From: an uncultured Bacillota bacterium
GTDB lineage: Bacteria > Bacillota_I > Bacilli_A > RFN20 > CAG-288
Reading direction: 5' to 3'
Length of the DNA: 64,000 nucleotides
Assembly (NCBI GenBank): GCA_949284445.1
Contig: CASDVP010000003.1
Span: 1 to 64,000, forward strand
Part shown: positions 1,282 through 23,887 of the stretch, one piece after another
Numbering within the stretch: position 1 is the first letter of the stretch
Layout: each line of letters begins with the position of its first letter
Notes under the pieces: generated by a model
Told to the model about the DNA's origin: nothing
Seen by the model: only the letters and a program-made list of their open reading frames with translations
The model's database searches: none
Position numbers and translations under genes: made by a program

Positions 1282-4200
1282 ATGAAACTGAAATCGTTTT
1301 GGAAAACCAAAGGCTTCAAAAGTTGGTTTTTTACTACTATTCCTATCACAATCATCGCTTTGACTGTCGGGTCTGTGATGACTGCAAACGACTTCCTCTA
1401 TAACACTGTCGTCCAAGTGTTCGGCGGTGAGAGAAGAAAAGTCAAAAGCGGTGATCCATCTAAATACCAATATTTTGAAGGCGATTATGATTCTAAAAAA
1501 GATGTTTTAAAAGCCGCAAATGAATTGAATGAAGAGATCGTATCAGAAGGTATCACGCTATTAAAGAATGATGACTCTTTACCATTAGCCTCCACATCAA
1601 AAGTAACTGTCTTTGGAAAGAACTCTTCTGATTTAGTCTTAGGCGGTTCCGGTTCTAATGCCACTGGTTCTTCCAACGATGTCAGAACGATCTATAACAG
1701 TTTAGAAGAAGCTGGTTTCACTTATAACCCGGTGATGAAAAGCTTCTATGACGGTTCTAGTTCAGGTGGTGGACGTCCGTCCTCTCCTGATATGAATGCT
1801 ACTACCACTGGTTTGACCGGTTTTCCGACTGGTGAAACACCGCTCAGTTCATATACTGATAAGGTCAAAAATAGTTTTGCTGAATATAGTGATGCCGCTA
1901 TCGTCGTCTTATCCCGTATCGGCGGTGAAGGCTTTGATTTACCTCGCTCAATGTTCTATGACGGAAGCGGATATCAAAATTGGAGCGGTGACAAACTCAT
2001 CCCTGGTGCTAGAAGCAAAGATGATCACTACCTGCAATTAGATCAGAATGAAACTGACATGTTAAATTTAGCATGTGAAAATTTTGATAACGTCATCGTC
2101 GTTTTAAATTCGCCAACTCCATTAGAATTAGGCTTTTTAGATGATCCTTCTCATTATGCTTATCACGAAAATATCAAAGGTGCTGTATGGTTGGGATTAC
2201 CTGGCAATTCGGGTGTTATGGCGCTCGGCAAAGTTTTAAACGGTGAAGTTAATCCATCAGGTAGAACCGTTGATATTTATCCTCGCAATTTTAAAAACGA
2301 TCCGACTTGGAATAACTTCAGCAACAATTTAGTCGCCGATGGCAATCGTTATCAAGATGAAGGAGGCAAGAAAAGAAACGCCTATTTCGTTGATTATGAT
2401 GAAGGTATCTATATCGGTTATCGCTATTATGAAACTAGAGGATATACGGATGGTGAAGATTGGTATGATGATAATGTCATTTATCCGTTCGGATATGGTT
2501 TAAGCTATTCAGATTTCACTTGGGAGATAACTGATGTGTCTCCAGCCACTATCGAAGATCTGCAAGCCGACGATGAGATTCAAATAACTGTCGAAGTCTA
2601 TAATGAAAGCGATAGGCCAGGTAAAGATGTTGTCGAACTCTATTATTCTGCTCCATATACGGATGGTGAAATTGAAAAATCGCATGTCGTTTTAGGTGAT
2701 TTTGCTAAAACTGAGTTGATTCCTGCTCATGATAGCAGAACTGTGACTCTATCTTTAAAAGCTAGAGATATGGCATCATACGATTATAATGATGCTAACA
2801 AAAATGGTTTCAAAGGATACGAATTAGAAGCCGGTGATTACAATCTGTATATCGCCAAAAACTCACATGATTATTCAAACTCTTTAACTTATCACATCGC
2901 TGATGATATCCGTTATGAAACTGATGATGCGACTGGTGAAGAAATCACTAATCTCTTCGATGATGTCAGCTCTAGAATAAACCAATACCTTTCAAGAAGT
3001 GATTGGGAAGGCACTTGGCCTAGCAAACCGACAGCTGAAGAGATGACTTTATCAAAAGCTGATTTAGAGCAACTTGGTTCTTATAAGATCGAAGATGATG
3101 AGAATGATCCTTGGTTTTCATTTGAAACTCCTACTCAAAGTCAAAACGTTTTGTCATATGAAGAGACGGAGATCAAATTATGGAACCTGATCGGTAAAAA
3201 TTACGATGATCCGTTATGGGATCAGTTATTAGATCAATTGACAGTCGGCCAAATGGCTCGTCTCATCCAAATCGGAAACTATCACACAGAAGCTATCGAA
3301 AACATCGACAAACCTTTAACCACTGATCCTGATGGTCCGATGGGATATTCAGTCTTCATGGGTAACCCTTCCGTTTATGACACTTGTTATTATGCTTGTG
3401 AATCTTTAGCTGGTTCTACATGGAACGAGGAATTGATGAAACGCTTTGGTCAGATGATCGGTAATGAATCTATCATCGGTAATGAAAAAGGCGATCAAGT
3501 TCCTTATTCTGGTTGGTATGCACCAGCTGCTAATTTGCATCGTTCACAATTCTCAGGAAGAAACTTCGAATATTATTCTGAAGATCCTGTTCTCTCAGGA
3601 AAATTAGCTTCCGCTGTTATTCAAGGCGCTAAAGAAAAAGGTGTTTACACCTACATGAAGCATTTTGCCTTAAATGAACAAGAGACTAATCGTGATACCT
3701 CTGGCTTAGTCGTCTGGGCTAATGAGCAAGCGATGAGAGAGATGTATTTTGTCCCGTTTGAAGAAGCTGTTAAAGTCGGTGGAACCACAGCTATGATGTC
3801 TTCTTTCACCCGTGTAGGCTTCACTTGGGCTGGTGGAAATTATAATCTTTTGACTAGACTATTAAGAAAAGAATGGGGATTTAAAGGTATGGTCGTCACC
3901 GACTATAACTTAAAAACCTATATGAATCTCGATCAGATGATCAGAGCAGGCGGTGATTTAAACTTATCGCAAAGTAAATATTTGACTGATACGAGTTCTT
4001 CAACCGCCATCACTTGCATCCGTAAATCTTGTAAGAACATCTTATATACAGTCGCTAATTCCAATGCTATGAACGGCTTTGGTGAAGGCGTCAGATATTA
4101 TTATGCACGTCCTATTTGGTTCATCATCATGTGGAGCTGCATAGCTACTATCATCGGTGGTCTTCTAGTTTGGGGTGTCTTCATCTTCATCAGAGTGAAC

Positions 4201-6195
4201 AAGACTAACAGAGCAGCAAGGCTCAGCGGTTTCTATCCAGATGGAAGTCCATATACCAAAGAAAGAGCTAAAAAACTCATCACCTATCGTTTCACCGTAC
4301 CATCTATCGTTTATGGTTGTTTAGCCATACTCCTATTAGCAGGAACTACTTCATTATCTATTTACATGATGGCATCGCCGGATCTGATACCGAGCATCAA
4401 ACCTGTCGCTGATCAATACTTAGGTAATATTTCTATCCTTTATAACCATGCGCCGATCACCACAGATGTCATCGAATTACGCGTCGGTCAAGAAGATCAG
4501 TTCTTCACAGTATCAATCGATTCTTACAACATGTCAGCTGGTGGTTACACGTTAGAAAGCTCTGATATTTCAATATTAGAAATTTCTGAAAGCGGTGAAG
4601 CTATCGCCAAGAAAGCTGGTGAAGTCATCTTGACTGCGACAGCTAAAAATGACAAATCATTGACCACTTCTATCGCAGTTAGAGTCATCGATGATACCAC
4701 ACCTGAAAAAGAAATGCATTCGATCACGGTCATCGGTGGATACGCTGATTATAGTGAAGCCGAAGAAGGAACCATCGTAACATTAAAAGCTGATGCTCGC
4801 GATGATGCTACCTTCACCAGTTGGTCAACTGATGTTCCTGATGTCTGGTTCAATGGTAATATCTTTAAAATGCCTGATTGTGATATCACTATCACCGCTA
4901 ATTACAAATATAAAGAATTCACTTTAACCTTAGAAGGAGCGACCTTCTCTGATGGTTCTACTTCTAAAGATATCGAAGCATTTACAGAAGTCAGTGATAT
5001 CATCCCCGAGCCGAGCACTAACTATTATGATAGCGACGAATTATTAGGCTATCGTGATCCGGAAGGCAATGTTTACTCATTACCATTAGTCATGCCGACT
5101 GAAGATCTAACTCTAAGCCCATATTATCGCATGGCTGGAACTAATCAAACATTAGCTACTGGAACTAGAAATTATGTCACTGGTGCAGTAGGAGCTAAGA
5201 GAGAAGAATTTAACGGCGTCATCTCAACCAGTTACACCATTCCACAAGGTCAAGCAGGTTACTACTTTGACATCATGAATCTGAAAGAAGGAACAGATGG
5301 TTTCTATCTGAATCCTGGTGATACTAGAAACTTGATCTATACCTTCACTAATAAAGGCGATTATGACATCTCCTTCAATTATTCAGTCGAATATGGTTCA
5401 GTCGATGTCACTGTCAAAGCACACTCCTATGAGATCGTCGAGTTTAAGGCGACATTAGCTGATGATCAAGCAGGTATCAGACCATATCACCATCTCACTT
5501 TGAATGCTGATTTAGCCGGCAAAACCGAATTAGTCATCACCGCCTATGAATATGATTATTATCATCTCAATTTAGTCGATGCGACTTTCGAAGATGGCAC
5601 CACATCCAAAACATTAAAAGCCGGTGAAGAAATTCCTGAAGTCATCTTTGATGAAGATAAATTCGATCTGCAAGATTATGAAACTTTAGTCCTGAGAGAT
5701 GAACAAAATCGTGCTGTCACTACTATGCCATACCGCGATGTCACCTTATCTCCTAATAAGCAGATCAACGGCACCAGCTATTATCTAGCGACTAAGATCA
5801 GAAAATATGATGGCGCTAGTGCTAAACGCGATCTCTTAAACGGTGATCAAGCAGTGAGATATACACTCCCTAGCAACAGTTCTGGTTCACTGTTCGATAT
5901 CCAAAACGAGAAGACATCAACTGATGGTTTCTTCATCAACTATCAAGAGACTTTAAAATTATTCTTCCGCTTCCAAAATGATGGTGATTATGAAATCAGT
6001 TTCACTTATTCGGTCGAATATGGTGAAGTCGATGTGACTTTAGCACCGCATGAGACTAAAGATGTCATTCTTGAGATCACTAACAATACAGATACAGGCG
6101 GTTTAAGACCTTATCACCATGTGACGTTGACTCAAGACTTAGCTGGTCAAACCGATCTAGTCATCGCTTGTTTCATCTTAAACACTAATGCATAA
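1282..6195 (+). CDS. giant membrane-anchored, circularly permuted GH3 glycoside hydrolase with Ig-like and tandem C-terminal modules
   Basis: Predicted to cleave beta-linked sugars outside the cell. The 1637 residues run: N-terminal membrane helix (about 13-35); GH3 alpha/beta-sandwich domain first, with probable acid/base Glu216 in GGEGFD; fibronectin-III-like domain (about 430-545, PGKDVVELYY); then the GH3 TIM barrel (about 640-930) with DGPMGY, KHFALNEQE and nucleophile Asp874 in MVVTDY. This permuted order is known from Butyrivibrio and Ruminococcus beta-glucosidases. Two membrane helices (about 946-970 and 1006-1029) follow, separated by a basic loop. Next come a BIG2-like Ig domain (about 1060-1150) and two copies of a roughly 210-residue module (1213-1425 and 1426-1637). 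AAAGGAG precedes ATG 1282. It heads an operon with the two genes downstream. The substrate is unknown. Confidence 0.88.
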   Translation: MKLKSFWKTKGFKSWFFTTIPITIIALTVGSVMTANDFLYNTVVQVFGGERRKVKSGDPSKYQYFEGDYDSKKDVLKAANELNEEIVSEGITLLKNDDSLPLASTSKVTVFGKNSSDLVLGGSGSNATGSSNDVRTIYNSLEEAGFTYNPVMKSFYDGSSSGGGRPSSPDMNATTTGLTGFPTGETPLSSYTDKVKNSFAEYSDAAIVVLSRIGGEGFDLPRSMFYDGSGYQNWSGDKLIPGARSKDDHYLQLDQNETDMLNLACENFDNVIVVLNSPTPLELGFLDDPSHYAYHENIKGAVWLGLPGNSGVMALGKVLNGEVNPSGRTVDIYPRNFKNDPTWNNFSNNLVADGNRYQDEGGKKRNAYFVDYDEGIYIGYRYYETRGYTDGEDWYDDNVIYPFGYGLSYSDFTWEITDVSPATIEDLQADDEIQITVEVYNESDRPGKDVVELYYSAPYTDGEIEKSHVVLGDFAKTELIPAHDSRTVTLSLKARDMASYDYNDANKNGFKGYELEAGDYNLYIAKNSHDYSNSLTYHIADDIRYETDDATGEEITNLFDDVSSRINQYLSRSDWEGTWPSKPTAEEMTLSKADLEQLGSYKIEDDENDPWFSFETPTQSQNVLSYEETEIKLWNLIGKNYDDPLWDQLLDQLTVGQMARLIQIGNYHTEAIENIDKPLTTDPDGPMGYSVFMGNPSVYDTCYYACESLAGSTWNEELMKRFGQMIGNESIIGNEKGDQVPYSGWYAPAANLHRSQFSGRNFEYYSEDPVLSGKLASAVIQGAKEKGVYTYMKHFALNEQETNRDTSGLVVWANEQAMREMYFVPFEEAVKVGGTTAMMSSFTRVGFTWAGGNYNLLTRLLRKEWGFKGMVVTDYNLKTYMNLDQMIRAGGDLNLSQSKYLTDTSSSTAITCIRKSCKNILYTVANSNAMNGFGEGVRYYYARPIWFIIMWSCIATIIGGLLVWGVFIFIRVNKTNRAARLSGFYPDGSPYTKERAKKLITYRFTVPSIVYGCLAILLLAGTTSLSIYMMASPDLIPSIKPVADQYLGNISILYNHAPITTDVIELRVGQEDQFFTVSIDSYNMSAGGYTLESSDISILEISESGEAIAKKAGEVILTATAKNDKSLTTSIAVRVIDDTTPEKEMHSITVIGGYADYSEAEEGTIVTLKADARDDATFTSWSTDVPDVWFNGNIFKMPDCDITITANYKYKEFTLTLEGATFSDGSTSKDIEAFTEVSDIIPEPSTNYYDSDELLGYRDPEGNVYSLPLVMPTEDLTLSPYYRMAGTNQTLATGTRNYVTGAVGAKREEFNGVISTSYTIPQGQAGYYFDIMNLKEGTDGFYLNPGDTRNLIYTFTNKGDYDISFNYSVEYGSVDVTVKAHSYEIVEFKATLADDQAGIRPYHHLTLNADLAGKTELVITAYEYDYYHLNLVDATFEDGTTSKTLKAGEEIPEVIFDEDKFDLQDYETLVLRDEQNRAVTTMPYRDVTLSPNKQINGTSYYLATKIRKYDGASAKRDLLNGDQAVRYTLPSNSSGSLFDIQNEKTSTDGFFINYQETLKLFFRFQNDGDYEISFTYSVEYGEVDVTLAPHETKDVILEITNNTDTGGLRPYHHVTLTQDLAGQTDLVIACFILNTNA

Positions 6196-6206
6196 GGAGG
6201 TGGGAT

Positions 6207-9200
6207 ATGAGTGTACTAAAATCATTATTAGTTCTTTCCTTAGCTGGTCTCTTACCCGGTGGAATGAGATATGCGCCTTCAAGAGAAGGAGCCAAAGAAA
6301 ATTATTATTTCACAAACTATGACACCAAAGCTGAATCCTTAGAAGCAGGTGAAGCTTTAAACAATCAGATCTTAGAAGAAGGTATCACCCTCTTAAAGAA
6401 TGAGGATAACGCTTTACCTATCGTTAGCGGTTCGAAAGTTTCGATATTCGGTAATTTCTCCACTGATCTGATCTATAACGGCGCTGGATCAGGTTCTGGT
6501 TCAGCTGGTACCCAGATCCCTCTTCAAGATGTCTTCGCTAATGCGGGTTTAGAAGTGAATCCCGCCTTAACTTCCTTCTACTCGAATGATAGTTTGTCTC
6601 CGAAACCAGGCAGTTTGACTGGTTACACGATCAATGCTGGTTATAATTTAAAAGAAACACCAGTTTCAACATTAGAGCAAAACGTTTCAACTAGCACTTA
6701 TAACGAATATAACGATGCTGCGTTCATCGTCATCTCTCGTTCCGGTATGGAAGCTGCTGATCTTCCTAAGGGTATGTCAACCGGCTTCACAGGTTCTGGT
6801 TTAAACGGTACTAAAGTCGATGGTGCAAGATATTTTGATGACCACAGTCTTCAACCGACTCAAGCTGAAGCTGATCTCATCCATTATGTCGAGCAATATT
6901 TCGATAAAATAGTAATTCTCTTAAATACCGGTTCTTCGTTTGAAGCCGGATTCTTAGATGATCCTGGTCACTACGCCTACTCACCAAACATAAAAGCTGC
7001 TTTATGGTTCGGCTTCCCTGGAAAAGGTGAAGGCTTAAACGCTTTAGGTAAAATCATCACCGGTGAAGTTAATCCATCCGGTCACACCGTCGATACTTAT
7101 GCCCGTGATTTTAAAAACGATCCGACCTGGCACAACATGCCGACTTATAGTAATAGCCTTGTTAAATACACCAATCTCAACAAGAGCTTAGTCAACTATA
7201 AAGAAGGCATTTATGTCGGTTATAGATATTATGAAACCAGAGGATTCACTGAAGGAGATTCTCCTTATAACAGTGAATCAGATAACGGTCAAAATTCGCT
7301 TCATAACACCACTACTACTTCTTGGGAAAATTGGTATGAGTCCGCAGTCGTTTACCCGCTCGGATATGGTTTAAGCTATACGACTTTTGATTGGAAATTA
7401 GTCAGCACTAGCTTAGAAGAAGATGCTGTCCTAGGGCAGGAAGATGAAGTCACTCTCAATGTAAAAGTCACTAACACCGGCGAAAAAGCTGGTAAAGATG
7501 TCGTTCAACTTTATTACACGGCTCCTTATACAAAAGGTGAGATCGCTAAGGCTCATGTCAATCTAGCCGATTATGTAAAGACTAAAACCTTAGCACCTGG
7601 TGAAAGTCAGACCTTATCTCTTTCCATCAAAGTTCGCGACATGGCATCATACGACTATAACGATGCCAATAACAACGAGTTCATAGGTTATGAATTGGAT
7701 GGTGGGAATTACGTCTTAAAACTTTCTAAAAACGCACATGAACCTGTATTAACAGTCAACTATTCAATACCAGAAGAAGGTTATCAATATAAGACTAGTT
7801 CGACTGGTAAAGAGATTAACAACCTTTTCTCTGACGCTGAAATGCCTAACACCGTCTATCTTTCAAGAGATGATTGGGAAAACACTTTCCCTAAGCAGAT
7901 CACCGCTGAAGAAAGAGTGGCTCCTCAATCAGTCATCGATGAAGTCAATGCTACTTCTAATTCCAATCAGATCCTCGCTAATGATGATCCTAGCGATCCT
8001 TGGTATAGTGAAACTATGCCGACGACCGGTGATAACACCGGCTCAGTCCAACTGACTGATCTATACGGATTAGATTATGATGATCCTTTATGGGAGACCT
8101 ACTTAGATCAATTCGCCGTCGGTGATAAAACGCATTCCGGTATGGCATATACCATTTGGAATGCAGGTTGGTATATCTATGGCATCGACGCTTTAGGATT
8201 TAAAACCACTCACCAAGAGGATGGCCCTTCCGGATTAGATGGTCGTCATGAAGGCGGCACTTATACTAACTTCGCTTCTGAAACTGTTTTAGCTTCCACG
8301 TATAATAAAGATTTAGCCTATCAAAAAGGTCTCATCATCGGTAACCAAGGCCTCTTCGGTAATAACATGAGTGTCTCTGGTTTATACGCTCCTAGTGTCA
8401 ACTTACACCGTTCTCAATTCGGCGGTAGAAACTTTGAATACTATTCCGAAGATCCTTATATCTCAGGTGAGATGGCTGGTCATATCATCAAAGGCTGCAA
8501 TGAGAAAGGTATGATCACTTTCTTGAAACACTTCGCAGTCAACGAACAGGAATCCAATCGTGAAAACTTACTGACCTGGGCTAACGAACAATCCATCCGT
8601 GAACTCTATCTAAAACCATTCCAAATCTGCGTTGAAGAATATAACACCCATGGCATCATGTCCGCTCTTAACAACTTAGGAGCTACATGGGTCGGCGGTA
8701 ATTATAACTTGTTAACGACTCTCTTACGTGAAGAATGGGGCTTTGAAGGTATGGTCATCACTGACTATATCCAAGGCCGTGCACAATTAAACGGCAACTT
8801 AGCTATCAGAGCCGGTGGAGATATCCTCTTAGCTACTAGCGGCAGTCAACAAAACCCAGTCGGTTTAGATTCTGCTACTACTGTCGCTTCCTTGAGAAGA
8901 GCGATGCATAACATCTGTTACACCACGGTGAATTACACCGCTATCTACAATAACAGCATTGAAAATATCTTAGGTCAATATCAAGGCACTAACCTCACAC
9001 CTGCTATCGCTGGTTATGATTATGAAGCTGAGATCAACACTTGCTTGACTAATGATGGGAGCGATAGCAAACGAGTTGTCAAATACGAACTCAAAGATGG
9101 TGAACAATTACCAGAAGGTTTAAAACTGAGCTCCGATGGTATCATCACCGGTGTCCCAGCAGCTAATTATCAGAGCTACACTTTCACGGTCGTCGCTTCT

Positions 9201-10952
9201 TATGAGCATTCTAAACGAGAAGCAGAATTCACCCTACCTGTCGTCAACAAAGAATTGTCGGTCATCTATACCAAACCTGTCGATGTGAATATAAACACCG
9301 GTTATGTCGGTGAAGCTTATCGCCAAGACGTCAACTGGGCATCGATCGCTAGCGGTGAAAGCTTAGAAATCAGTTATGGTTTAGCAGATGGCAGTTTATT
9401 ACCTGAAGGTTTGTCCTTATCACAAGAAGGTGTTATCAGCGGTACTCCGACTAAGACTTGTTTCAACTATGAAGTCACGATCGAAGCTAGTGCTGAAGGC
9501 AAACTTCCGATGTCAGTGACTTTACAGATCACGATCGGTAATCGTATCATACCGAACGATAAAGTCTTAAAAACCGGCAAAGTCAATCAACAATATGCGG
9601 AATCGATCGCTAATGGTCAGAATGGTCTTTCTTATCAGCTAGACGAGAATAGCACCTTGCCTGATGGCTTACGACTGACTGAATCTGGAACCATAGTCGG
9701 TACACCGACTGCGGCAGTCAGTGAACATTCCTTCACAATCATCATCAGCGGTGACGACTATATCACCACCACTAAGACCTATACCATCAGCATCGCTATC
9801 AGTTATCCGGACTTTTCTTTAGATGAGATGACAGTCAACACCTCTGTCGAAGTCCCAGTCAATTTCGCTATCGGTGGAAACAATATCATCTATGAGATCA
9901 GCGATGGCAGATTGCCTGATGGTCTTGAGCTCACCTCGGACGGTGTTTTAAAAGGCACACCGACGAGAGCTGGCAATTTCACTTTCACCATCAGAGCTAA
10001 ACTAGGCGAAAACATCCAAGACGAAGTGACTGTTTCCTTAACAGTCAATCCTAGCCAAACTAACAACAATTACATCATCGGTATGTCTATCGGTATCGGA
10101 ACTATCGTGCTTGGTGCTCTAGCGATTCTCATCTTCTTCCTCTATTTCGATAAGAGGAATCGCATCGATGATTCAGATGAGGATAAAGATGATTCAGATG
10201 AAAACAAAGTCAATCCTGACGACTATTACGGATTAGATGAAAAGGTGAAGAAAGAACAAAAAGCTATAGAAGAAAAGAAGACTAAAAAGAAAAGAAAAGT
10301 CAATTTTAAAGTGATGATCCCTACTCTCACCGGTTTCTTAGCTTTAGGAACAGGCATCGTCTTATGCATCCACTTTTTAACCCCTTCTTCTTTAGCAGGA
10401 GGTGGAAGTCAGACTTTCACCTTCGAAGCTGAATACGTCTATCTGGATGATTTTAATGGAGCTGGCCTCTCTAACTCCGCTGATGGGGTTGATAACATCT
10501 ATGGTGATGGAACTGAAGCCGATATTGCAAACGGTTATTCCAATGGTTATTTCTTAGGAAATACTTATGCCGAAAATCAGATCGATTTCAATTTTGAAGC
10601 CGATAAGGCTTCAAATGCTAAACTGACTCTTCGCTTAGCATCTGAACTCGGTAATATCACTTTGAACAATGATGTTTTCGGAGTTGAATTAAACGGACAG
10701 GCGATCGATTATTCGATAGTCGTCAGCAATTCCACCTCTTCAGGAAAATACGATTTTGCTGATTATCCTATCAATACCACATTGAATTTGAGCGCAGGTG
10801 AAAACACCGTGTCATTGATCATCAAAAACAATAAATTGTTAAATGGTAATAGAACTGGTGCTCCATTTATCGATTGCATCAAAATAACGACAGAAGCCGA
10901 TCTGACTTGGGAACCTCTCACCGACAATCCATCTAGACGCGGTTCTATCTGA
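6207..10952 (+). CDS. second giant permuted GH3 glycoside hydrolase with four putative-Ig domains and a C-terminal CBM-like domain
   Basis: A 1581-residue paralogue of the preceding gene, starting 11 bases after its stop behind a strong AGGAGGTG. A short hydrophobic N-terminus (about 4-18) is followed by the permuted GH3 order. The equivalent of the acid/base Glu is Glu182, but its context is GMEAAD instead of GGEGFD. The FnIII-like domain lies near 425 and the TIM barrel spans about 628-930 with EDGPSG, KHFAVNEQE and nucleophile Asp853 in MVITDY. Four He_PIG-type domains span about 937-1288, each with an LPxGLxLxxxGxIxGxP signature. Then come a membrane helix (about 1289-1311), an acidic then lysine-rich cytoplasmic stretch, a second helix (about 1370-1390), and a carbohydrate-binding-like beta domain (about 1403-1581). 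Substrate specificity may differ from its neighbour. Confidence 0.87.
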   Translation: MSVLKSLLVLSLAGLLPGGMRYAPSREGAKENYYFTNYDTKAESLEAGEALNNQILEEGITLLKNEDNALPIVSGSKVSIFGNFSTDLIYNGAGSGSGSAGTQIPLQDVFANAGLEVNPALTSFYSNDSLSPKPGSLTGYTINAGYNLKETPVSTLEQNVSTSTYNEYNDAAFIVISRSGMEAADLPKGMSTGFTGSGLNGTKVDGARYFDDHSLQPTQAEADLIHYVEQYFDKIVILLNTGSSFEAGFLDDPGHYAYSPNIKAALWFGFPGKGEGLNALGKIITGEVNPSGHTVDTYARDFKNDPTWHNMPTYSNSLVKYTNLNKSLVNYKEGIYVGYRYYETRGFTEGDSPYNSESDNGQNSLHNTTTTSWENWYESAVVYPLGYGLSYTTFDWKLVSTSLEEDAVLGQEDEVTLNVKVTNTGEKAGKDVVQLYYTAPYTKGEIAKAHVNLADYVKTKTLAPGESQTLSLSIKVRDMASYDYNDANNNEFIGYELDGGNYVLKLSKNAHEPVLTVNYSIPEEGYQYKTSSTGKEINNLFSDAEMPNTVYLSRDDWENTFPKQITAEERVAPQSVIDEVNATSNSNQILANDDPSDPWYSETMPTTGDNTGSVQLTDLYGLDYDDPLWETYLDQFAVGDKTHSGMAYTIWNAGWYIYGIDALGFKTTHQEDGPSGLDGRHEGGTYTNFASETVLASTYNKDLAYQKGLIIGNQGLFGNNMSVSGLYAPSVNLHRSQFGGRNFEYYSEDPYISGEMAGHIIKGCNEKGMITFLKHFAVNEQESNRENLLTWANEQSIRELYLKPFQICVEEYNTHGIMSALNNLGATWVGGNYNLLTTLLREEWGFEGMVITDYIQGRAQLNGNLAIRAGGDILLATSGSQQNPVGLDSATTVASLRRAMHNICYTTVNYTAIYNNSIENILGQYQGTNLTPAIAGYDYEAEINTCLTNDGSDSKRVVKYELKDGEQLPEGLKLSSDGIITGVPAANYQSYTFTVVASYEHSKREAEFTLPVVNKELSVIYTKPVDVNINTGYVGEAYRQDVNWASIASGESLEISYGLADGSLLPEGLSLSQEGVISGTPTKTCFNYEVTIEASAEGKLPMSVTLQITIGNRIIPNDKVLKTGKVNQQYAESIANGQNGLSYQLDENSTLPDGLRLTESGTIVGTPTAAVSEHSFTIIISGDDYITTTKTYTISIAISYPDFSLDEMTVNTSVEVPVNFAIGGNNIIYEISDGRLPDGLELTSDGVLKGTPTRAGNFTFTIRAKLGENIQDEVTVSLTVNPSQTNNNYIIGMSIGIGTIVLGALAILIFFLYFDKRNRIDDSDEDKDDSDENKVNPDDYYGLDEKVKKEQKAIEEKKTKKKRKVNFKVMIPTLTGFLALGTGIVLCIHFLTPSSLAGGGSQTFTFEAEYVYLDDFNGAGLSNSADGVDNIYGDGTEADIANGYSNGYFLGNTYAENQIDFNFEADKASNAKLTLRLASELGNITLNNDVFGVELNGQAIDYSIVVSNSTSSGKYDFADYPINTTLNLSAGENTVSLIIKNNKLLNGNRTGAPFIDCIKITTEADLTWEPLTDNPSRRGSI

Positions 10953-10963
10953 GGAGGTGTCAT

Positions 10964-12475
10964 ATGAAAAAGAATAAAGTTTTAAGCATTTTCACCTCAT
11001 TATTATGCCTAACATCATTAGCCTCTTGTGCTAACGCTGGTAAACACATCATCTCTATCGCTGTTTATAACGGTGATAACAGCTATGTCGTAGGTGAAGA
11101 ATTCGCAGATACCCAACTAGCTGTGACCTATGATAACGGCGATAAGGAATTAGTCGATATCACCTTGAATATGGTCGAAGGATTCGACACTTCAGTAGCG
11201 GGAACAAAAACGCTCATCATCTCATACGGTGGCTTGACAACCGAGTTTGAAATCACTGTCAGCAATCTTTACATCACTGAATTAGTGATGAAAGATGGTT
11301 ATAAAGATCAATATTTCAAAAACGACGACTATCAAGCAAATGATGCGACTATCATCGCTAGATATACTGATGAACATGAAGAAGAAGTCAGCGTGACTAT
11401 AGATATGATCAGAGCGTTTGATACCAGCAAAGTAGGAACGAGCAATGTCATCGTCTATTATGAGGGTTTGACTATCAGCTATCCCATCACGATCACTAAT
11501 CCTAAAGTTGTTGATTATTCCTTATCCGCAGATACTTCAACCGTTTACTTCATGCATGATGAATTCAAAGGCATCACTGTGAATGTCACTTATGAAAACG
11601 GTGTATCAGAAGTGCTCACTTTTGATGATGCGAATGAGATCGAAGGCTTTGATACCAGCACTTATGGTATTAAAACTATCTACTTACCCATCAATGATGA
11701 AAAGATTGAGGTTGAGATCGAAGTCAAGAAAGAAGTCAAATCTTTATCACTCAAACCAGGTCAAAATCTGATCTTTGAAAGAGACGAAGAATTAGAATCC
11801 TTAGTCATCGTAGTCACCAATTATGATGATACAACTGAAGAGATCACTTTAAATAGTGATGATATCACTGACTTTGATACTTCAAAAGCTGGTGTGACCA
11901 CCATCAATTATTCTTATGGTGGTAAATCATTGAGCTTTGATATCATAGTTCCTCTGATAAATCTTAAAGATTATGAAGAAAGCACTGATAAACGTTTTGT
12001 CGTCCAAGCCGAAGACGAAGATTATGTCGACTTATCAGAAGTCAGCACTTATTCACCTGGTTTAGAAAAATATGAAGATGCTAATGGTGAAGGATCTACT
12101 GGAAAGTGCACTGCTAATTTCGGTCAAGTAGCTAATCAAACCTTCTATCTCAGATTCTATTCCAGTTATGAAGGTACATATTCCTTAGAGATGAACAGTC
12201 AATCCGCAAGTAATAAAGGCGGATCTGATCAAGTCCTAAAGGATGTCTTGAGCGTTGAAGTCGATGGTGTTGATACACCAGCACAAGGCACTTCTTTGAA
12301 AGCTGGCACTGGAAATTGGGCTAATATGACCAATTGGAACTGGGCTACTATCGCTACTGACTTAACACTTCATAAAGGCTTAAATACGATCACCCTTCAT
12401 TCTTTAAATGTTGACAGCAATAAACGTCTTCCTAATATCGATGCGTTTGCTATCACTATTAACAGTGTGAAGTGA
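10964..12475 (+). CDS. surface lipoprotein with four Ig-like repeats and a CBM6/35-like domain
   Basis: A 503-residue protein with a lipoprotein signal: lipobox LASC with the lipid-anchored Cys at residue 22. Residues about 28-340 form four repeats of an Ig-like fold, each ending in a recognisable FDTSxxGxxxI stretch, similar to bacterial Ig-like group 3/4 domains. Residues about 345-503 form a carbohydrate-binding-like module that begins with VQAEDEDYV and ends LPNIDAFAIT, resembling CBM6/CBM35 folds and the end of the preceding GH3 protein. No catalytic motif is visible. It starts 11 bases after the second GH3 gene behind AGGAGGTG, so it is co-transcribed and probably holds glycan near the anchored enzymes. 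Binding is inferred, not shown. Confidence 0.8.
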   Translation: MKKNKVLSIFTSLLCLTSLASCANAGKHIISIAVYNGDNSYVVGEEFADTQLAVTYDNGDKELVDITLNMVEGFDTSVAGTKTLIISYGGLTTEFEITVSNLYITELVMKDGYKDQYFKNDDYQANDATIIARYTDEHEEEVSVTIDMIRAFDTSKVGTSNVIVYYEGLTISYPITITNPKVVDYSLSADTSTVYFMHDEFKGITVNVTYENGVSEVLTFDDANEIEGFDTSTYGIKTIYLPINDEKIEVEIEVKKEVKSLSLKPGQNLIFERDEELESLVIVVTNYDDTTEEITLNSDDITDFDTSKAGVTTINYSYGGKSLSFDIIVPLINLKDYEESTDKRFVVQAEDEDYVDLSEVSTYSPGLEKYEDANGEGSTGKCTANFGQVANQTFYLRFYSSYEGTYSLEMNSQSASNKGGSDQVLKDVLSVEVDGVDTPAQGTSLKAGTGNWANMTNWNWATIATDLTLHKGLNTITLHSLNVDSNKRLPNIDAFAITINSVK

Positions 12476-12915: not shown

Positions 12916-13955
12916 ATGAAAGAACTTAAGAAAGTAGATAATTATTCCGATGATATTTTTTAGTTGATTCAAAATATTTCAAAAATCATTGTCGAGTCTA
13001 AAAAGAAAGTAATAACTACTGTTAATACAACGCTTCTTGATGCTTATTGGAATATTGGTAAATTGATAGTCGAGCAGGAGCAAAACGGTAATAACAAGTC
13101 TCAATACGGGTCAAACACGCTAGGGACAATATCCAAAGAACTTTCAAAAAGTTATGGCAAAGGATTTTCCGTGTCTAATCTTCAAATGATGAGAAGATTT
13201 TATTTGGTTTATCGAAATCAACAGACAGTGTCTGTTAAATTGAGTTGGTCGCATTATATCGAAATTCTTTCAGTAGCTGATGACAAAGCTAGAAGCTTTT
13301 ATCAACATGAATGCGAGAATTCTAATTGGTCCGTTAGGGAGTTGCGAAGACAAATAGCATCATCATTTTACGAAAGACTTTTATTATCTAAAGGTGATGT
13401 GAACAAAGAGAAGTTAATTGAGTTATCGAAAAAAGGTATCACTTATTCTTCGCCTAATGATTTTGTGAAGGATCCGATGGTCCTTGAATTCTTGGGATTG
13501 CCAGAGGAAAAACCGCTGTTGGAAAGCGACTTGGAGCGCTCTTTGATAGAACATATAGAAAATTTTTTGCTTGAATTAGGCAGAGGATTCATGTTCGTTG
13601 GCTCTCAATACCGCATATCAATTGATGGCGTCAACTACTATGTGGACATGGTCTTCTATAACAAAATTTTGCATGCATATCTTTTAATCGATTTAAAATG
13701 GGTAAATTGCGACCTGAGAATTATGGACAAATGAATATGTATCTGAACTATTTTAAAAATGAGATAAATGATGATGGAGACAAAGATCCCGTCGGCATTA
13801 TTCTTTGCGCCGAGAAAAACAATATCGTTGCCCAATATTCTATGGAAGTATTAAAAACAAACATTTATGCCTCAAAATATACTTATGTGATTCCAAATAA
13901 GGAACAACTTGAGATGGAATTGCAAAAAGTATTAGAAAGCAAAAAATCTGATTAG
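12916..13955 (+). pseudogene. broken DUF1016/YhcG-family PD-(D/E)XK nuclease
   Basis: The family is a putative PD-(D/E)XK nuclease often found with restriction or mobile genes. ATG 12916 opens a frame that meets an amber codon at 12961 after 15 codons, then continues unbroken from 12964. The N-terminal DUF1016 domain shows LLDAYWNIGKLIVE, YGKGFSVSNLQMMRRFY and LSWSHYIEIL. The nuclease core YYVDMVFYNKIL and LLIDLK follows. At an A run near 13695 the frame is lost. The correct continuation (GKLRPENYGQMNMYLNYF) is in another frame from 13698 to 13955, consistent with one missing A. An intact copy would be about 345 residues. The homopolymer shift could be a sequencing error, but the separate stop argues for real decay. 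Confidence 0.85.
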
Positions 13956-18804: not shown

Positions 18805-20421
18805 TTAACTATTAGCAGCTTGTGAGAAAGCAGAAGCGACAGCTTGATCAACTAAAGTTTTGATCTGTTCATCAGTTTTAGCGCTGTGATCATTTAAGAT
18901 TGTATTGACCAAGGCGCCAACAGCATCTCTACAACCAGCTGAAGAACCAGTTTTATTATCAAATACAGGAGCAGAGAAATAACAACCTTCTGTTAAATAT
19001 TCCTGGTTCAATTTATATGATTGACCAAGATATGTATCTTTCTTAGCTTGTTGAGTTTCAGCAGTAGTAGAAGTTTCACTGACTTCATTATCAGCAGCTT
19101 TGATCAGATTTTGAACTGCAGGTGTGCTATTAGAGGATTGACGGATTGGGAAGTAACCAGTAGTAGCAGCTAAACCAGCGCTGTTATCAGTGTTGGTCAA
19201 GAATTTATAGAAATCAAATGTATATTTCTCAACTTCAGTTTTAGCATTTCTGAATAAAACTAAGGAAGGTCCTTGAGCGATGGCTTGATGAGTACCAGCA
19301 TCAGTAGAATTGAAAATCGGGAAGTCTTTCTTGCCAGCAGTAGCAGTAGGATGGACTGACGCTTTATAACCATCAGCAAATAAATACATACCAGATGTAG
19401 AAGAAGAGATGAGCATGAACACTGAGCCATAGTTGACCATGGAAGTTGAATAGGCGTGATATTCTGGACTAGTTTTACTCCAAGTCAATTGATTTTTTGT
19501 GCAAATCAAGCCCTCATTATTCCATTTCTTCAATTGGATAAGCATGTTTTTAACATCATCATTATTAAAAGTAGGAGCAGTTAATGAGGTGTAGTCGATA
19601 TTCATCATCTTACATAAGGAGATGAAAAGATTATCAGCAGAATCATAACAGATCGGAACTGCCTTAAAATTACCATCTTCATCATATCTGTTTTCTTCAG
19701 AAAAAGTATCAGGGAAGTCGACCATCATCTGTCTAGCTAAGTCGATCATCTCTGTCCAATCAGTAGGAACTTCATAAGCGGATTTGCTACTAGCAGCAAC
19801 AGGGGCGATATATTGTTCACCGCCGTTTAATGCAGGATCTTCACTAGCTGTATGACCAGCGGCACCTTCACCAACTTTTTCAAAGACACTGTCATTGATG
19901 AATAAACCTTCAGTCGAACGTGAATAAGGTAAGGTTAAAAAGTCTTTTTCATCACCATAAGAGGTTTTTTCAGAATTGAAATCGATATCGGATTTCAAGC
20001 TCTTTTCATCATCGATAATCTTGCCACTAGCATCAACGGTTTTACCGAATCCGACTTCAGCATCATCAAAATATTTAGAAGCATGTAAAACAGCATCGCC
20101 AAACGTGACAGCATCATCAGGATAAACAGAAGCGATGTTAGGGAGAACGTGGCTGCTTAATCCATTTCTGACTTGTTCAGCAATTGCATCATAATCGTCA
20201 TATGCTTGTTGAACAATTTTGACATTTGGATGTAGTGCTTCATAATCTTCAATAACACCTTCGACATACTCATAACGACTGAAATCACCAGTTGGATTTT
20301 TTTCTGTCGGTTGAGCATAATCGTTCCACCAAACAATTTCAATTTTGTCTGTTTTAGTACAGCTGTTTAAGACTAATACACCTGTAGCTAAGGCTAATAA
20401 CGAACAAAGAGTCTTTTTCAT
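18805..20421 (-). CDS. sugar ABC transporter solute-binding lipoprotein
   Basis: The extracellular sugar-capturing subunit of the importer encoded just upstream. The 538-residue product has a lipoprotein signal with lipobox LNSC and anchor Cys21. The mature start IEIVWWNDYAQP and the later VIEDYEALHPNVKIVQQAYDDYD are typical of family 1 (UgpB/MalE-like) binding proteins. FYKFLTNTDNSAGLAATTGYFPIRQS is a characteristic late segment of the family. It is longer than the usual 420-450 residues. GGGGGAGA lies just before the ATG. It is the last gene of the operon ATPase-permease-permease-binding protein. The transported sugar cannot be told from the sequence. Confidence 0.88.
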   Translation of the reverse strand: MKKTLCSLLALATGVLVLNSCTKTDKIEIVWWNDYAQPTEKNPTGDFSRYEYVEGVIEDYEALHPNVKIVQQAYDDYDAIAEQVRNGLSSHVLPNIASVYPDDAVTFGDAVLHASKYFDDAEVGFGKTVDASGKIIDDEKSLKSDIDFNSEKTSYGDEKDFLTLPYSRSTEGLFINDSVFEKVGEGAAGHTASEDPALNGGEQYIAPVAASSKSAYEVPTDWTEMIDLARQMMVDFPDTFSEENRYDEDGNFKAVPICYDSADNLFISLCKMMNIDYTSLTAPTFNNDDVKNMLIQLKKWNNEGLICTKNQLTWSKTSPEYHAYSTSMVNYGSVFMLISSSTSGMYLFADGYKASVHPTATAGKKDFPIFNSTDAGTHQAIAQGPSLVLFRNAKTEVEKYTFDFYKFLTNTDNSAGLAATTGYFPIRQSSNSTPAVQNLIKAADNEVSETSTTAETQQAKKDTYLGQSYKLNQEYLTEGCYFSAPVFDNKTGSSAGCRDAVGALVNTILNDHSAKTDEQIKTLVDQAVASAFSQAANS

Positions 20422-20446
20422 AACTCTCCCCCTTTTTTGATATTTA

Positions 20447-20466
20447 AAGTAACTATAAAGTTGCTT
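20447..20466 (-). promoter_or_regulatory. intercistronic stem-loop before the binding-protein gene
   Basis: AAGTAACT (20447-20454) and AGTTGCTT (20459-20466) pair over eight bases with one mismatch, between the last permease and the binding-protein gene. Such hairpins often stabilise or separately dose binding-protein mRNA. This is inference from position. Confidence 0.35.
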
Positions 20467-20479
20467 TAACCTATTTAGT

Positions 20480-21445
20480 TTACCCTTTTATTCCTGCTCT
20501 AGCAACACCATGCATGATATATTTTCTAAAGAGTATGAAAAGAACTAGTAAAGGAAGTGTTGTTAAAAAGGTTGCAGCCATTTGCCAAGTGTATTGTGGT
20601 CTCCAAACTTCGTGCTCAAACACTTGGAAGGTTGTGCTTCTTAAAGCCACCGAAATGACATCAAAATCAGGATTGAGAATGACTAAGCTCGGCCAGACAT
20701 ATGAATTCCAGGAATCGATCAGGTTCATGATAAAGATAGTGATCAATGTTGGCATAGCTAAAGGAACCATCACTTTCCATAAGAATTGCCAGTCGCTTTT
20801 GCCATCGACTCGGCTAGCTAAGTACAATTCATCAGGTATCTGTTTAAAATTCTGTCTCAACAAGTAAATGTAAAACACATTAGCTAAAAACGGAAGGATC
20901 AAAATCAGATAAGCTTGCCAAGCGTCCTGATTTAAAGATATAAGACCGAGATTAGCCATGGTCGAAAAATTGGTGATGACCATCGTTTCGCCCGGTATCA
21001 TCATCGTCGCTAAAAGGATTGTGAACAAAACTTCACGGCCCTTAAAATGAAGCTTAGAAAAGGCAAAGGCCGCTAAAATGGTCACTAAAAGACTTCCACA
21101 AGTCGTCGATAAACCGACTATGAGAGTATTGGTGATCAGAGCTGGAAAATCAAAGCCATCCGAAGCGATAGTGTGAGAATAATTATAAATGATATTATCG
21201 ATGATATTTCCTTCAGTCGGGAAGAAGTCACCTCTACCTAATTGAGATTCAGTCATACAGGAAGCAGCTAACATATAATAAAAAGGTAAAAAGAGAACTA
21301 AAACAGCGGCTATCAAAATCAGATAGGTCACAACTAAACCTATGATATGAAGGATTTTGCTAGTTTTTTCGGTGTCTTTGATACTGCGCTTTTTATTAGG
21401 AATGACCAGAACTAAGCGCGTCGTAGTTTTCACTGTCTTTTCCAT
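20480..21445 (-). CDS. sugar ABC transporter permease (MalG/UgpE type)
   Basis: One of two membrane subunits of the sugar importer. The 321 residues include an N-terminal cytoplasmic stretch, about six membrane helices, and the EAA-type loop that docks the ATPase (ELYLASRVDGKSDWQFLWKVMVPLAMPT). The C-terminal GVARAGIKG ending is typical of the MalG/UgpE branch. Start ATG 21445 overlaps the stop of the partner permease as TGATG, implying translational coupling. An upstream in-frame TTG at 21448 is less likely. A 58-base gap with a stem-loop separates it from the binding-protein gene. Confidence 0.92.
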   Translation of the reverse strand: MEKTVKTTTRLVLVIPNKKRSIKDTEKTSKILHIIGLVVTYLILIAAVLVLFLPFYYMLAASCMTESQLGRGDFFPTEGNIIDNIIYNYSHTIASDGFDFPALITNTLIVGLSTTCGSLLVTILAAFAFSKLHFKGREVLFTILLATMMIPGETMVITNFSTMANLGLISLNQDAWQAYLILILPFLANVFYIYLLRQNFKQIPDELYLASRVDGKSDWQFLWKVMVPLAMPTLITIFIMNLIDSWNSYVWPSLVILNPDFDVISVALRSTTFQVFEHEVWRPQYTWQMAATFLTTLPLLVLFILFRKYIMHGVARAGIKG

Positions 21446-22380
21446 CAATAATAAACCCTCTTCTTAGAAATTTGTAATTGGATGATCGTAAACACAAGGA
21501 TGATGGCGAATAAGACCACGCATCCAGCAGCGGCATATTCAAGATGAGGAGTGCCGTTAGTACCTTTTAATTGATCATAGATATAGTAGACGACAGTGTA
21601 GAGATTATGAGTGTTGCCATCGCTTGTAAAAGAGCGGTTGAACAGACCGACCACTGCAGAATATTCCTTAAAACCTGAAATAAAAGAAGTGATAGAAATA
21701 TACAGTATTTGAGGAGATAATAGAGGTAAAACAACTTTTAAATCAGTTTTAAATTTAGAAGCACCATCAACCTTGGCAGCATCATAATATTGCTGGTCGA
21801 TATTCTGTAGACCGGATGAAAAGATCAAGATCTTAAACGGCAAAGCAGTCCAGATCACATATAGACATAAAACAAACATGCTCTTAGCATAATCAGCACC
21901 GGGTTCCACCCAATTCACCTCTCCTAAGCCAAGGATGTGATTGAATATGCCTGTTTTATCAAAAATGATAGCAAAGACCATACCGACCGCGATGACATTA
22001 GTCACATAAGGTAAAAAGAAAATAGTTTGGAAAAAATGATGTAAAAATTTGACTCTGTTCAGTAACAAAGAGATGACAAGAGCAATTATGACTGAGATAG
22101 GAACGGTGATAAAAGTGATGATCAATGTGTTAGGTAAAGCATAACGGATAAAATCCGTCATACGAGAAGCCGGCTCACCAGGTATTTTTTCTGTGATGCC
22201 TAAGACAGTCCCGTAATTATCAAAAGTGAATCCGGAATTCGAACCAGTCACATAATTGTAATCATCAAGAAAGGAGATGACAAAAGTATTGATGATAGGA
22301 AAGAAAGTAAATACCGCTAATAAGATTAAAACCGGCGCTAGATAAAGCCAGGCTTTATAATTATTCTTTGTCTCTTCCAT
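21445..22380 (-). CDS. sugar ABC transporter permease (MalF/UgpA type)
   Basis: The other membrane subunit of the importer. It has 311 residues and about six helices, beginning KAWLYLAPVLILLAVFTFFP as in UgpA/LacF-type permeases. The EAA loop reads DAAKVDGASKFKTDLKVVLP. It overlaps the end of the ATPase gene by 20 bases and the next permease by one base, so translation of the set is coupled. Confidence 0.92.
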   Translation of the reverse strand: MEETKNNYKAWLYLAPVLILLAVFTFFPIINTFVISFLDDYNYVTGSNSGFTFDNYGTVLGITEKIPGEPASRMTDFIRYALPNTLIITFITVPISVIIALVISLLLNRVKFLHHFFQTIFFLPYVTNVIAVGMVFAIIFDKTGIFNHILGLGEVNWVEPGADYAKSMFVLCLYVIWTALPFKILIFSSGLQNIDQQYYDAAKVDGASKFKTDLKVVLPLLSPQILYISITSFISGFKEYSAVVGLFNRSFTSDGNTHNLYTVVYYIYDQLKGTNGTPHLEYAAAGCVVLFAIILVFTIIQLQISKKRVYY

Positions 22381-23887
22381 CTAGATAGATTCTCTTTTCA
22401 GTTTTGATATCAAACAGGTATACTTTGCTCTTTTTGATCGCAAACGTGACTGGACCTTCTTTAACTTCAGCATCGCTATCTAATAGCACTTTAAACTGTT
22501 CTTCACCGACAAAATCAGGATGTGAACAAGTTAAAGAGATATCTTTACCGCTCGGTTGAATCAGTTCTACATCTGCATGGAACAATAAAGAATCAGAAGA
22601 GATTTCAGAACCATATAAGAAACCTTCAGGTCGGATAGCGATATAGACTTCTCGCTTCTCTTTTTCAGGAGATAGCAAACCATCTGTCAAGTCATCTTCT
22701 ATTGTTTGATGTTTTTGATCAACTTCTAAGATAGGTTCATCGCCGATATATACAAACCCACCTTGAATATATCCTTTAAAAACATTGATAGGCGGATTAC
22801 CTAAAAATTTAGCAACAAAAAGATCATGCGGATCTTTATAAACGCTCTGAGGAGCACCTATCTGTCTGACACATCCTTCGTTCATAACGACGATGCGATC
22901 ACAGATAGCCATCGCCTCATCCTGATCGTGAGTGACAAAAACAGTAGTGATTCCAACTTCTCTTTGTATCCTCTTGATCTCTTCTCTGGTCTGTAATCTT
23001 AAACGGGCATCCAAGTTGGATAAAGGCTCATCTAATAATAAGACTTTCGGTTTCTTAACAAGAGCTCTAGCGATGGCGACACGCTGTTGTTGACCACCTG
23101 ATAATTCAGCCGGCTTTCTATCTAAATACTGACTGATTTGAACAAGCTTACTCGCTTCAGTCACAAGGCAATCAATCTCATCCTTAGTCAGATTGCGTGT
23201 CACTTTGACGACATTATTGTTCTCATCTAAAATCTCGTAATCTTCATTGATACGAATATTTTTAGCTTGGAGCTTTTCTTTTTCTTTATCGAGTTTTTGA
23301 CGATATTTATCAATGACTTTGTCTTTGACCTGTTTTAAATCTTTATATGTATGCAGATTTAAAGAAAACACTTCAGCAGCGACTGAAGAAGCTACGTTAT
23401 AAACATCCTGTATCTTTCTCATAGCAGCCGCTTTCTTGATGCGATCATTGACTGCACTATCGTTGATGACAGCGATCAATTTATCAGTGTCTTTTAAGAT
23501 ATCTAAAATGGTTTGATATCTTAAAGCTTTATAGGCTTTCTTTGAAGAATACACTTTCATATTAGTTAATGGGAAAGCGATGTTTTTATAAACATTCATA
23601 TGCGGATATAAAGCATAGTTTTGGAAAACCAAACCAATCCCGCGCTTTTGAGGTTCTAATTGTGTGACTTCTTCATCATCAAACCAAATTTCACCTTCAG
23701 TCGGTTCTTTCAAGCCAGCTAGCATATAAAGCGTAGTTGATTTACCACAGCCAGAAGGTCCTAAAAGACCTAATAATTCACCATCTTGGATATCGATGTT
23801 CAGGTGATCTACTGCAACGGTGTCCGGAATGTTTTTTTTAGCATCACCTGGAAAGGACTTAGTCAAGTTTACTAATTTAATTTGCAT
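22361..23887 (-). CDS. sugar ABC transporter ATP-binding protein (MalK/UgpC type) with large insertion
   Basis: Energises the sugar importer at the cytoplasmic membrane face. The 508 residues show Walker A GPSGCGKST (about 43-51), Q-loop Gln89 in VFQNYALYP, signature LSGGQQ (about 262), Walker B LLLDEP with SNLDARL, and a C-terminal TOBE-type regulatory domain (IRPEGF). Q-loop to signature normally spans about 50 residues. Here it is about 170, because a lysine-rich, probably coiled-coil insertion (about 112-240) sits in the helical subdomain. Comparable insertions are known in mycoplasma sugar-transport ATPases such as MG187. It is the first gene of the operon. Confidence 0.92.
   Translation of the reverse strand: MQIKLVNLTKSFPGDAKKNIPDTVAVDHLNIDIQDGELLGLLGPSGCGKSTTLYMLAGLKEPTEGEIWFDDEEVTQLEPQKRGIGLVFQNYALYPHMNVYKNIAFPLTNMKVYSSKKAYKALRYQTILDILKDTDKLIAVINDSAVNDRIKKAAAMRKIQDVYNVASSVAAEVFSLNLHTYKDLKQVKDKVIDKYRQKLDKEKEKLQAKNIRINEDYEILDENNNVVKVTRNLTKDEIDCLVTEASKLVQISQYLDRKPAELSGGQQQRVAIARALVKKPKVLLLDEPLSNLDARLRLQTREEIKRIQREVGITTVFVTHDQDEAMAICDRIVVMNEGCVRQIGAPQSVYKDPHDLFVAKFLGNPPINVFKGYIQGGFVYIGDEPILEVDQKHQTIEDDLTDGLLSPEKEKREVYIAIRPEGFLYGSEISSDSLLFHADVELIQPSGKDISLTCSHPDFVGEEQFKVLLDSDAEVKEGPVTFAIKKSKVYLFDIKTEKRIYLDGRDKE

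Follow-up and report, generated by a model that had tools for sequence, protein, structure and literature searches.

Predicted membrane hairpins in two GH3 glycosidases of a CAG-288 bacterium are probably relics of fusion to neighbouring lipoprotein genes

Introduction

An association between glycoside hydrolases of family 3 (GH3) and LytTR-type regulators is already known in outline from a 2010 paper on Butyrivibrio, reportedly by Kelly et al. In Butyrivibrio proteoclasticus B316, secreted GH3 enzymes with a C-terminal transmembrane helix are encoded near LytTR regulators in the polysaccharide utilization loci (PULs) 7, 21 and 33, and the part of the paper that deals with these loci describes neither a mid-chain hairpin nor a domain behind the helix, here called an exodomain (PMC2914790). 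The sialidase SiaBb2 of Bifidobacterium bifidum has a Sec signal and a C-terminal transmembrane domain, and also plays a role in adhesion (PMC5626965). Permuted GH3 β-glucosidases, in which the GH3-C domain precedes the TIM barrel in match order, are represented by PDB entries 5WUG and 5K6L, with chains of 921–955 amino acids (aa). Here we analyse an operon in a 64,000-nucleotide stretch of DNA (the window; positions 1 to 64,000 of contig CASDVP010000003.1, assembly GCA_949284445.1) from an uncultured Bacillota bacterium of the lineage CAG-288. The operon encodes two permuted GH3 enzymes (proteins 1 and 2) and a lipoprotein (protein 3). At 1581–1637 aa, the two enzymes carry domains and membrane helices that are added to the order seen in 5WUG and 5K6L.

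The initial annotation had proposed that each GH3 chain crosses the membrane and returns, which would tie its catalytic and binding parts to the cell at two points. Hydropathy does predict such a course, but the two helices appear to be an old anchor and a signal peptide rather than a purpose-built second tether. Specifically, we propose, with a probability of about 0.72, that each hairpin consists of the former C-terminal anchor of a GH3 enzyme and the signal peptide of a lipoprotein fused to it, and that the three surface proteins act together on a glycan. In a search of open-licence papers, no account of a GH3 enzyme with a mid-chain hairpin was found, and the scale of the GH3–LytTR association reported below was likewise not found described.

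Results

Both GH3 enzymes contain two strong helices in mid-chain

The three genes of the operon lie on the plus strand and are spaced by 11 bp (Table 1). In both GH3 proteins, Pfam places a GH3-C domain first, followed by an Fn3-like domain and the GH3-N/TIM domain, with the N and C domains exceeding the curated Pfam cut-offs. Two strongly hydrophobic helices and then beta domains follow, which bears out the shared plan that had been noticed at first. On three hydropathy scales (Kyte–Doolittle (KD), Hessa and Goldman–Engelman–Steitz (GES)), both mid-chain helices rank among the top three segments of each chain. In particular, their KD values are 2.36 and 1.98 in protein 1 and 2.55 and 1.95 in protein 2, while the next internal segments reach 1.12 and 1.04, respectively. 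To this plan we add the N-terminal ends: protein 1 begins with a further helix, giving three predicted spans in all, and protein 2 with a weak signal peptide that is probably cleaved. The N terminus of protein 3 is a lipoprotein-type signal (SLASC).

The chain does not end at the last helix but continues for 610 aa in protein 1 and 193 aa in protein 2. The loops between the helices had been described as charged and basic, which is true of protein 1 (9 K/R against 2 D/E); the loop of protein 2 is charged (17 K/R against 17 D/E), but basic only in its last 15 aa (8 K/R against 2 D/E). By this prediction, each GH3 chain enters the cytoplasm in mid-chain and comes back out, with the catalytic part and the exodomain both outside.

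The two halves have counterparts that are separate proteins

A paralogous cassette of the same genome, L019, encodes a lipoprotein of 634 aa, a GH3-A enzyme of 1372 aa, a GH3-B enzyme of 1001 aa, and a lipoprotein of 236 aa with a carbohydrate-binding module (CBM). The GH3-A enzyme (L019_5557) stops 11 aa past its C-terminal helix, which is the helix that matches hairpin helix 1 of protein 2. The GH3-B enzyme has helices close to both termini, and hairpin helix 1 of protein 1 sits where the L019 and L060 paralogues have their C-terminal anchor helix. The second halves match lipoproteins. Specifically, residues 1346–1581 of protein 2 are 42% identical to the 236-aa CBM lipoprotein L019_12644, from the signal peptide through the last residues, and protein 1 from residue 1019 onwards is 29% identical over 242 aa to the 634-aa lipoprotein L019_3666, in an alignment that begins inside the signal peptide. 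A CBM35-like character of the part of protein 2 behind the hairpin is suggested by this identity to L019_12644 and by a Foldseek search, in which the best matches are CBM35 (E 2.4e-5) for a low-confidence model with a mean predicted local distance difference test score (pLDDT) of 54.

In a family-wide search, the CBM module of protein 2 is fused only in the host genome (G000) and in the metagenome-assembled genomes (MAGs) G004 and G007, and is found in separate short frames, mostly of 233–528 aa, at about 20 other places. The module of protein 1 is fused in the same three genomes and separate in G000 and G004. The clearest candidate for a precursor state of fusion is L020, a sister of the L011 and L017 fusions, in which the gene for a C-anchored GH3 has, 2 bp behind it, a gene for a CBM lipoprotein; this lipoprotein is a homologue of the fused tails. 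Furthermore, 39 of 71 C-anchored GH3s adjoin a CBM protein on the same strand. The other hairpin proteins (L011, L015 and L017, with relatives in G004, G036 and G045) bear arrays of CBM-like domains, and the arrays of this type are related to separate lipoproteins beside other GH3 genes. As a separate observation, a repeated Cys-rich motif of the type C-x-x-K-C-P-x-C-G-x-C-x-D lies between the CBM-like domains at L011:6582-12755, L017:7284-12407 and L020:7028-8329, in predicted extracellular parts, and resembles zinc-ribbon knuckles.

Hairpins recur in the family and are kept under selection

We classed 98 GH3 open reading frames (ORFs) from 17 genomes by their hydrophobic helices. A C-terminal anchor only is present in 71, a hairpin with exodomain in 15, and a hairpin without tail in 2; the remaining 10 are without a C-terminal helix. 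The statement that permuted GH3 enzymes are usually soluble therefore fails in this lineage, whose GH3 enzymes are as a rule anchored in the membrane. Across 395 genomes sampled from the class, GH3s that have helices close to both ends are widespread, and hairpin GH3s with an exodomain were seen only in two genera of the host's order.

A midpoint-rooted FastTree tree was built from 92 catalytic regions. Four changes of the hairpin label are required on it, each forced by well-supported branches, and both protein 1 and protein 2 have their own unfused sister in L019/L060. By this tree, the two proteins acquired their hairpins independently, and hairpin fusion most likely happened about four separate times in the group. 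Two further forms were seen among these enzymes. In the GH3 L132_10779 of G024 (L132:10779-13808), which groups with the L015 fusions, merely 14 aa follow the hairpin, and this protein may be a truncated or intermediate fusion form. A GH3-A clade of five members (L065:6320-9841, L067:10028-13723, L069:10302-13961, L071:11849-15670 and L125:10472-14254) is without a C-terminal helix and has a lipobox-like N terminus in at least some members, which suggests a switch from a helix anchor to a lipid anchor.

A contig scan for the operon returned only two orthologues, in G004 and G007; the three-gene set with its hairpins was thus found in related genomes, but in three genomes only. The fusions are unbroken in these three MAGs, which represent three species, with identities of 90% and 63%. 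In the comparison of the window with G004, the ratio of nonsynonymous to synonymous substitution rates (dN/dS) is 0.04–0.10 for the catalytic, hairpin and exodomain parts and 0.08 for the loop of protein 1, values that are rough because dS is about 1 or above. Together with retention in three species, these values indicate that the fusion is under purifying selection and is not an artefact.

The active sites are intact

As judged from an alignment with positions set via PDB entries 2X40 and 2X42, the GH3 active sites of proteins 1 and 2 are intact. Specifically, E216 of protein 1 aligns with the Glu at position 458 of 2X40, and D874 corresponds to D242 of 2X40, a residue replaced by Ala in the 2X42 chain; the catalytic Asp and Glu are kept in every hairpin protein. 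The 2X40/2X42 β-glucosidase has this catalytic Asp and acid/base Glu in common with proteins 1 and 2, but is non-permuted, has 721 aa, and has no membrane helices noted. A strict nucleophile motif scan missed most paralogues and had suggested that they were dead; because the alignment shows the residues to be conserved, this reading was dropped. NCBIfam gave partial matches to arabinopyranosidase and β-glucosidase models, all far under cut-off, and we therefore assign no substrate from them. The exodomain of protein 1 matches PF18998 (InlB B-repeat-like) at residues 1157–1211.

Table 1. Features of the hairpin GH3 operon and of other loci in the window
Feature	Coordinates	Strand	Remarks
Protein 1, 1637 aa	1282..6195	+	permuted GH3, GH3-B lineage, putative hairpin fusion
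Protein 1 N-terminal membrane anchor (predicted), aa 16-34	1327..1383	+	KD 1.75; GES second best
Protein 1 GH3 C-domain, aa 91-380	1552..2421	+	PF01915 5.9e-25; acid/base E216
Protein 1 GH3 N/TIM domain, aa 710-877	3409..3912	+	PF00933 9.5e-22; nucleophile D874
Protein 1 hairpin helix 1 (predicted), aa 952-970	4135..4191	+	KD 2.36
Protein 1 predicted cytoplasmic loop, 38 aa	4192..4305	+	9 K/R, 2 D/E
Protein 1 hairpin helix 2 (predicted), aa 1009-1027	4306..4362	+	aligns with lipoprotein signal peptide
Protein 1 exodomain, aa 1031-1637	4372..6192	+	InlB B-repeat-like domain and two duplicated beta domains
Protein 2, 1581 aa	6207..10952	+	permuted GH3, four He_PIG, predicted hairpin, CBM35-like domain
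Protein 2 GH3 C-domain, aa 60-339	6384..7223	+	Pfam; acid/base E182 from alignment columns
Protein 2 GH3 N/TIM domain, aa 676-881	8232..8849	+	Pfam; nucleophile D853 from alignment columns
Protein 2 He_PIG Ig-like repeats, about aa 936-1285	9012..10061	+	PF05345, 4 stretches, 5.6e-34
Protein 2 hairpin helix 1 (predicted), aa 1294-1312	10086..10142	+	KD 2.55
Protein 2 predicted cytoplasmic loop, 57 aa	10143..10313	+	charged; 17 K/R, 17 D/E
Protein 2 hairpin helix 2 (predicted), aa 1370-1388	10314..10370	+	probable former lipoprotein signal peptide; degenerate lipobox IVLC
Protein 2 CBM35-like domain, aa 1391-1581	10377..10949	+	42% identity to lipoprotein L019_12644
Lipoprotein (protein 3), 503 aa	10964..12475	+	lipobox LASC, four Big_3 Ig-like domains, CBM-like C-terminal region
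DUF1016/YhcG-type nuclease gene	12964..13734	+	between the operon and an oligopeptidase F gene
Sugar-type ABC importer	18805..23887	-	nearest to the operon; syntenic in G004
Putative lipoprotein, 728 aa	61602..63788	+	HETGHMLGLND

AgrC-like kinases accompany the GH3 loci

The window begins at a contig end, and the two-component system adjoining the operon is therefore lost from the contig. In G007, a kinase/LytTR regulator pair lies immediately upstream of the operon; in G004, the upstream region contains a methyladenine glycosylase gene, which is also present in the window, followed by a divergent LytTR-type regulator and a GHKL kinase. The orthologous kinase of the host genome (90% identical) lies with its regulator at the start of contig C7, indicating that the starts of C7 and of C3, the contig of the window, very probably adjoin in the genome. 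Cassette L019 is on C7, and in G004 the window operon and the L019 cassette share one contig; given the probable C3/C7 junction, the window operon and L019 would be nearby paralogues.

The host genome (1.47 Mb in 12 contigs) contains 24 GH3 matches, a strong expansion of one glycosidase family for a very small genome. Several genomes of the same genus have 0 or 1 match to protein 1, indicating that the expansion varies sharply within the genus. For 13 of the 15 GHKL (AgrC-like) kinases of the host, a GH3 gene is found on the same contig at a distance of no more than 7 kb, which takes in about 20% of the genome (binomial P ~4e-8 under random placement of kinases). A 14th kinase belongs with the window operon, from which it is separated by the contig break. 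Nearly all AgrC-like kinases of this genome seem to be dedicated to GH3 loci. Examples of these kinases are found at C7:918-2276, C1:283829 and C3:200038. A kinase/regulator pair lies next to the GH3 gene in 36 of 53 loci examined, some of which are cut by contig ends.

Co-occurrence of the operon with a sugar importer, suggested as a check in the initial annotation, does not hold throughout. No importer gene lies inside the operon, and the nearest ATP-binding cassette (ABC) importer of sugar type was rejected as part of the system, since it is absent from the surroundings of the G007 copy as examined. The ATPase of this importer has 508 aa and matches the ABC domain in two stretches, which suggests an insertion. 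The DUF1016/YhcG-type nuclease gene has no match in the corresponding stretches of G004 or G007 and is perhaps a recent insertion. Towards the end of the window, the 728-aa putative lipoprotein has a metzincin-like zinc protease motif and no Pfam match.

Discussion

In the model that we favour, the three operon proteins would sit on the cell surface and co-operate on a glycan. Both GH3 enzymes would be exported with their catalytic domain outside, protein 1 being held by its N-terminal anchor and by the helix behind the catalytic region, and protein 2, after probable cleavage of its N-terminal signal, by the helix behind the Ig-like repeats. In relatives, the GH3 chain stops just past the anchor helix, and a separate lipoprotein of the same operon bears the putative glycan-binding domain. 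Each GH3 gene would have fused to such a lipoprotein gene, so that a cytoplasmic enzyme tail was joined to the cytoplasmic start of a signal peptide. Because both ends are cytoplasmic, fusion would in itself give a hairpin and leave both halves outside, with the signal peptide turned into a second, presumably uncleaved membrane helix. This topology would explain why the hairpin recurs and why the exodomain behind it is of lipoprotein type. Each enzyme would then carry its own binding module beside the membrane, and fixed 1:1 coupling of the two is the likely benefit. The third gene product, with its Ig-like and CBM-like domains, would remain an unfused lipoprotein, and expression is probably under the control of the AgrC-like kinase and LytTR regulator next to the operon.

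Several points weigh against this model. Hydropathy and charge are the whole basis on which the helices are called, and in the loop of protein 2 the positive and negative charges cancel out. The AlphaFold models, built on three-row alignments, have mean pLDDT values of 54 and 51 and contribute little. The exodomain of protein 1 matches its lipoprotein counterpart in the N-terminal part only. Finally, the tree is a midpoint-rooted FastTree tree, in which one of the four changes could be a loss.

If helix 2 still functions as a signal peptide inside the chain, cleavage by a signal peptidase would yield separate GH3 and CBM proteins. The descent of helix 2 from a lipoprotein signal peptide, its correct orientation, and the old lipobox Cys that protein 2 retains in each of the three species are in keeping with such processing. 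A lipobox normally has a small residue at −1, however, and the Leu kept there in the three species (IVLC) does not fit; moreover, the hydrophobic stretch of protein 2 extends beyond the Cys, and protein 1 is without a Cys at the corresponding place. We therefore regard processing as unlikely.

It is very unlikely that the hairpin and its cytoplasmic loop form a signalling device that reports glycan binding to the neighbouring AgrC-like kinase. The adjacency of nearly all these kinases to GH3 genes and the conserved loop of protein 1 would suit such a device, as would the failure to detect AgrB, which makes a classic peptide signal unlikely, although this is a soft negative given that the AgrB model was positive in only one of 14 control genomes, and weakly. 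Against it, the same kinases also lie beside C-anchored GH3s that lack a hairpin, so that the hairpin is not required, and the loop of protein 2 is variable and of low complexity. We consider it hardly probable that a hairpin GH3 is the reporting half of a glycan sensor, in which an extracellular binding event would move the hairpin and loop and thereby drive the kinase; if this were true, enzyme, receptor and trigger would form a single unit, present in many copies despite the very small genome.

The tight operon of two hairpin enzymes and a lipoprotein with CBM-like and Ig-like domains, kept in three species, could also be viewed as a compact machine for glycan capture, whose defining invention would be the hairpin, a purpose-built two-point tether. 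This is most improbable: the modules are separate proteins in most relatives, fusion alone produces such a hairpin without further change, and proteins 1 and 2 gained theirs independently. The initial annotation had linked separate homologous halves with a gene-fusion artefact, and such halves do occur, but the merging of adjoining genes through a missing stop codon by assembly or gene calling, however usual separate genes may be, is refuted by frames intact in three MAGs at 63–90% identity and by the low dN/dS across the seam.

A Pfam scan of the three operon proteins detected no cohesin or dockerin, so the operon does not class with cellulosomes. Sus-type systems are defined by the SusC/SusD outer-membrane pair, and outer-membrane proteins are not expected in Bacilli. 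Like Gram-positive PULs (gpPULs), the locus clusters glycosidases with regulators; unlike them, it has no sugar importer in the operon, and AgrC-like/LytTR regulators are rare among the gpPULs listed (PMC5320581). SiaBb2 is likewise a membrane-anchored surface glycosidase, but its chain ends at the helix and it belongs to another glycoside hydrolase family (PMC5626965). As far as the PUL descriptions in the Butyrivibrio paper go, that type shares with proteins 1 and 2 a secreted GH3 enzyme, a helix past the catalytic (or Ig-like) part as predicted by hydropathy, and a LytTR regulator nearby, and differs from the host described here, which has 24 GH3 matches and 14 GH3-associated AgrC-like kinases in 1.5 Mb (PMC2914790). 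Since the chains of proteins 1 and 2 continue past the last helix, unlike those of the Butyrivibrio type as described there, we class them as a variant of the LytTR-associated anchored GH3 type and not as plain members.

The model of fusion between anchor and signal peptide would provide a simple and repeatable route by which an anchored exoenzyme and an adjacent lipoprotein become one protein, with each half retaining its location and the hairpin left as a scar. Because the separate and fused states are paralogous operons of one genome, the gain from a binding module in cis would be directly testable. Furthermore, the findings point to a lineage of small-genome Bacilli built on surface GH3 enzymes, in which most loci would have their own AgrC-like/LytTR regulator.

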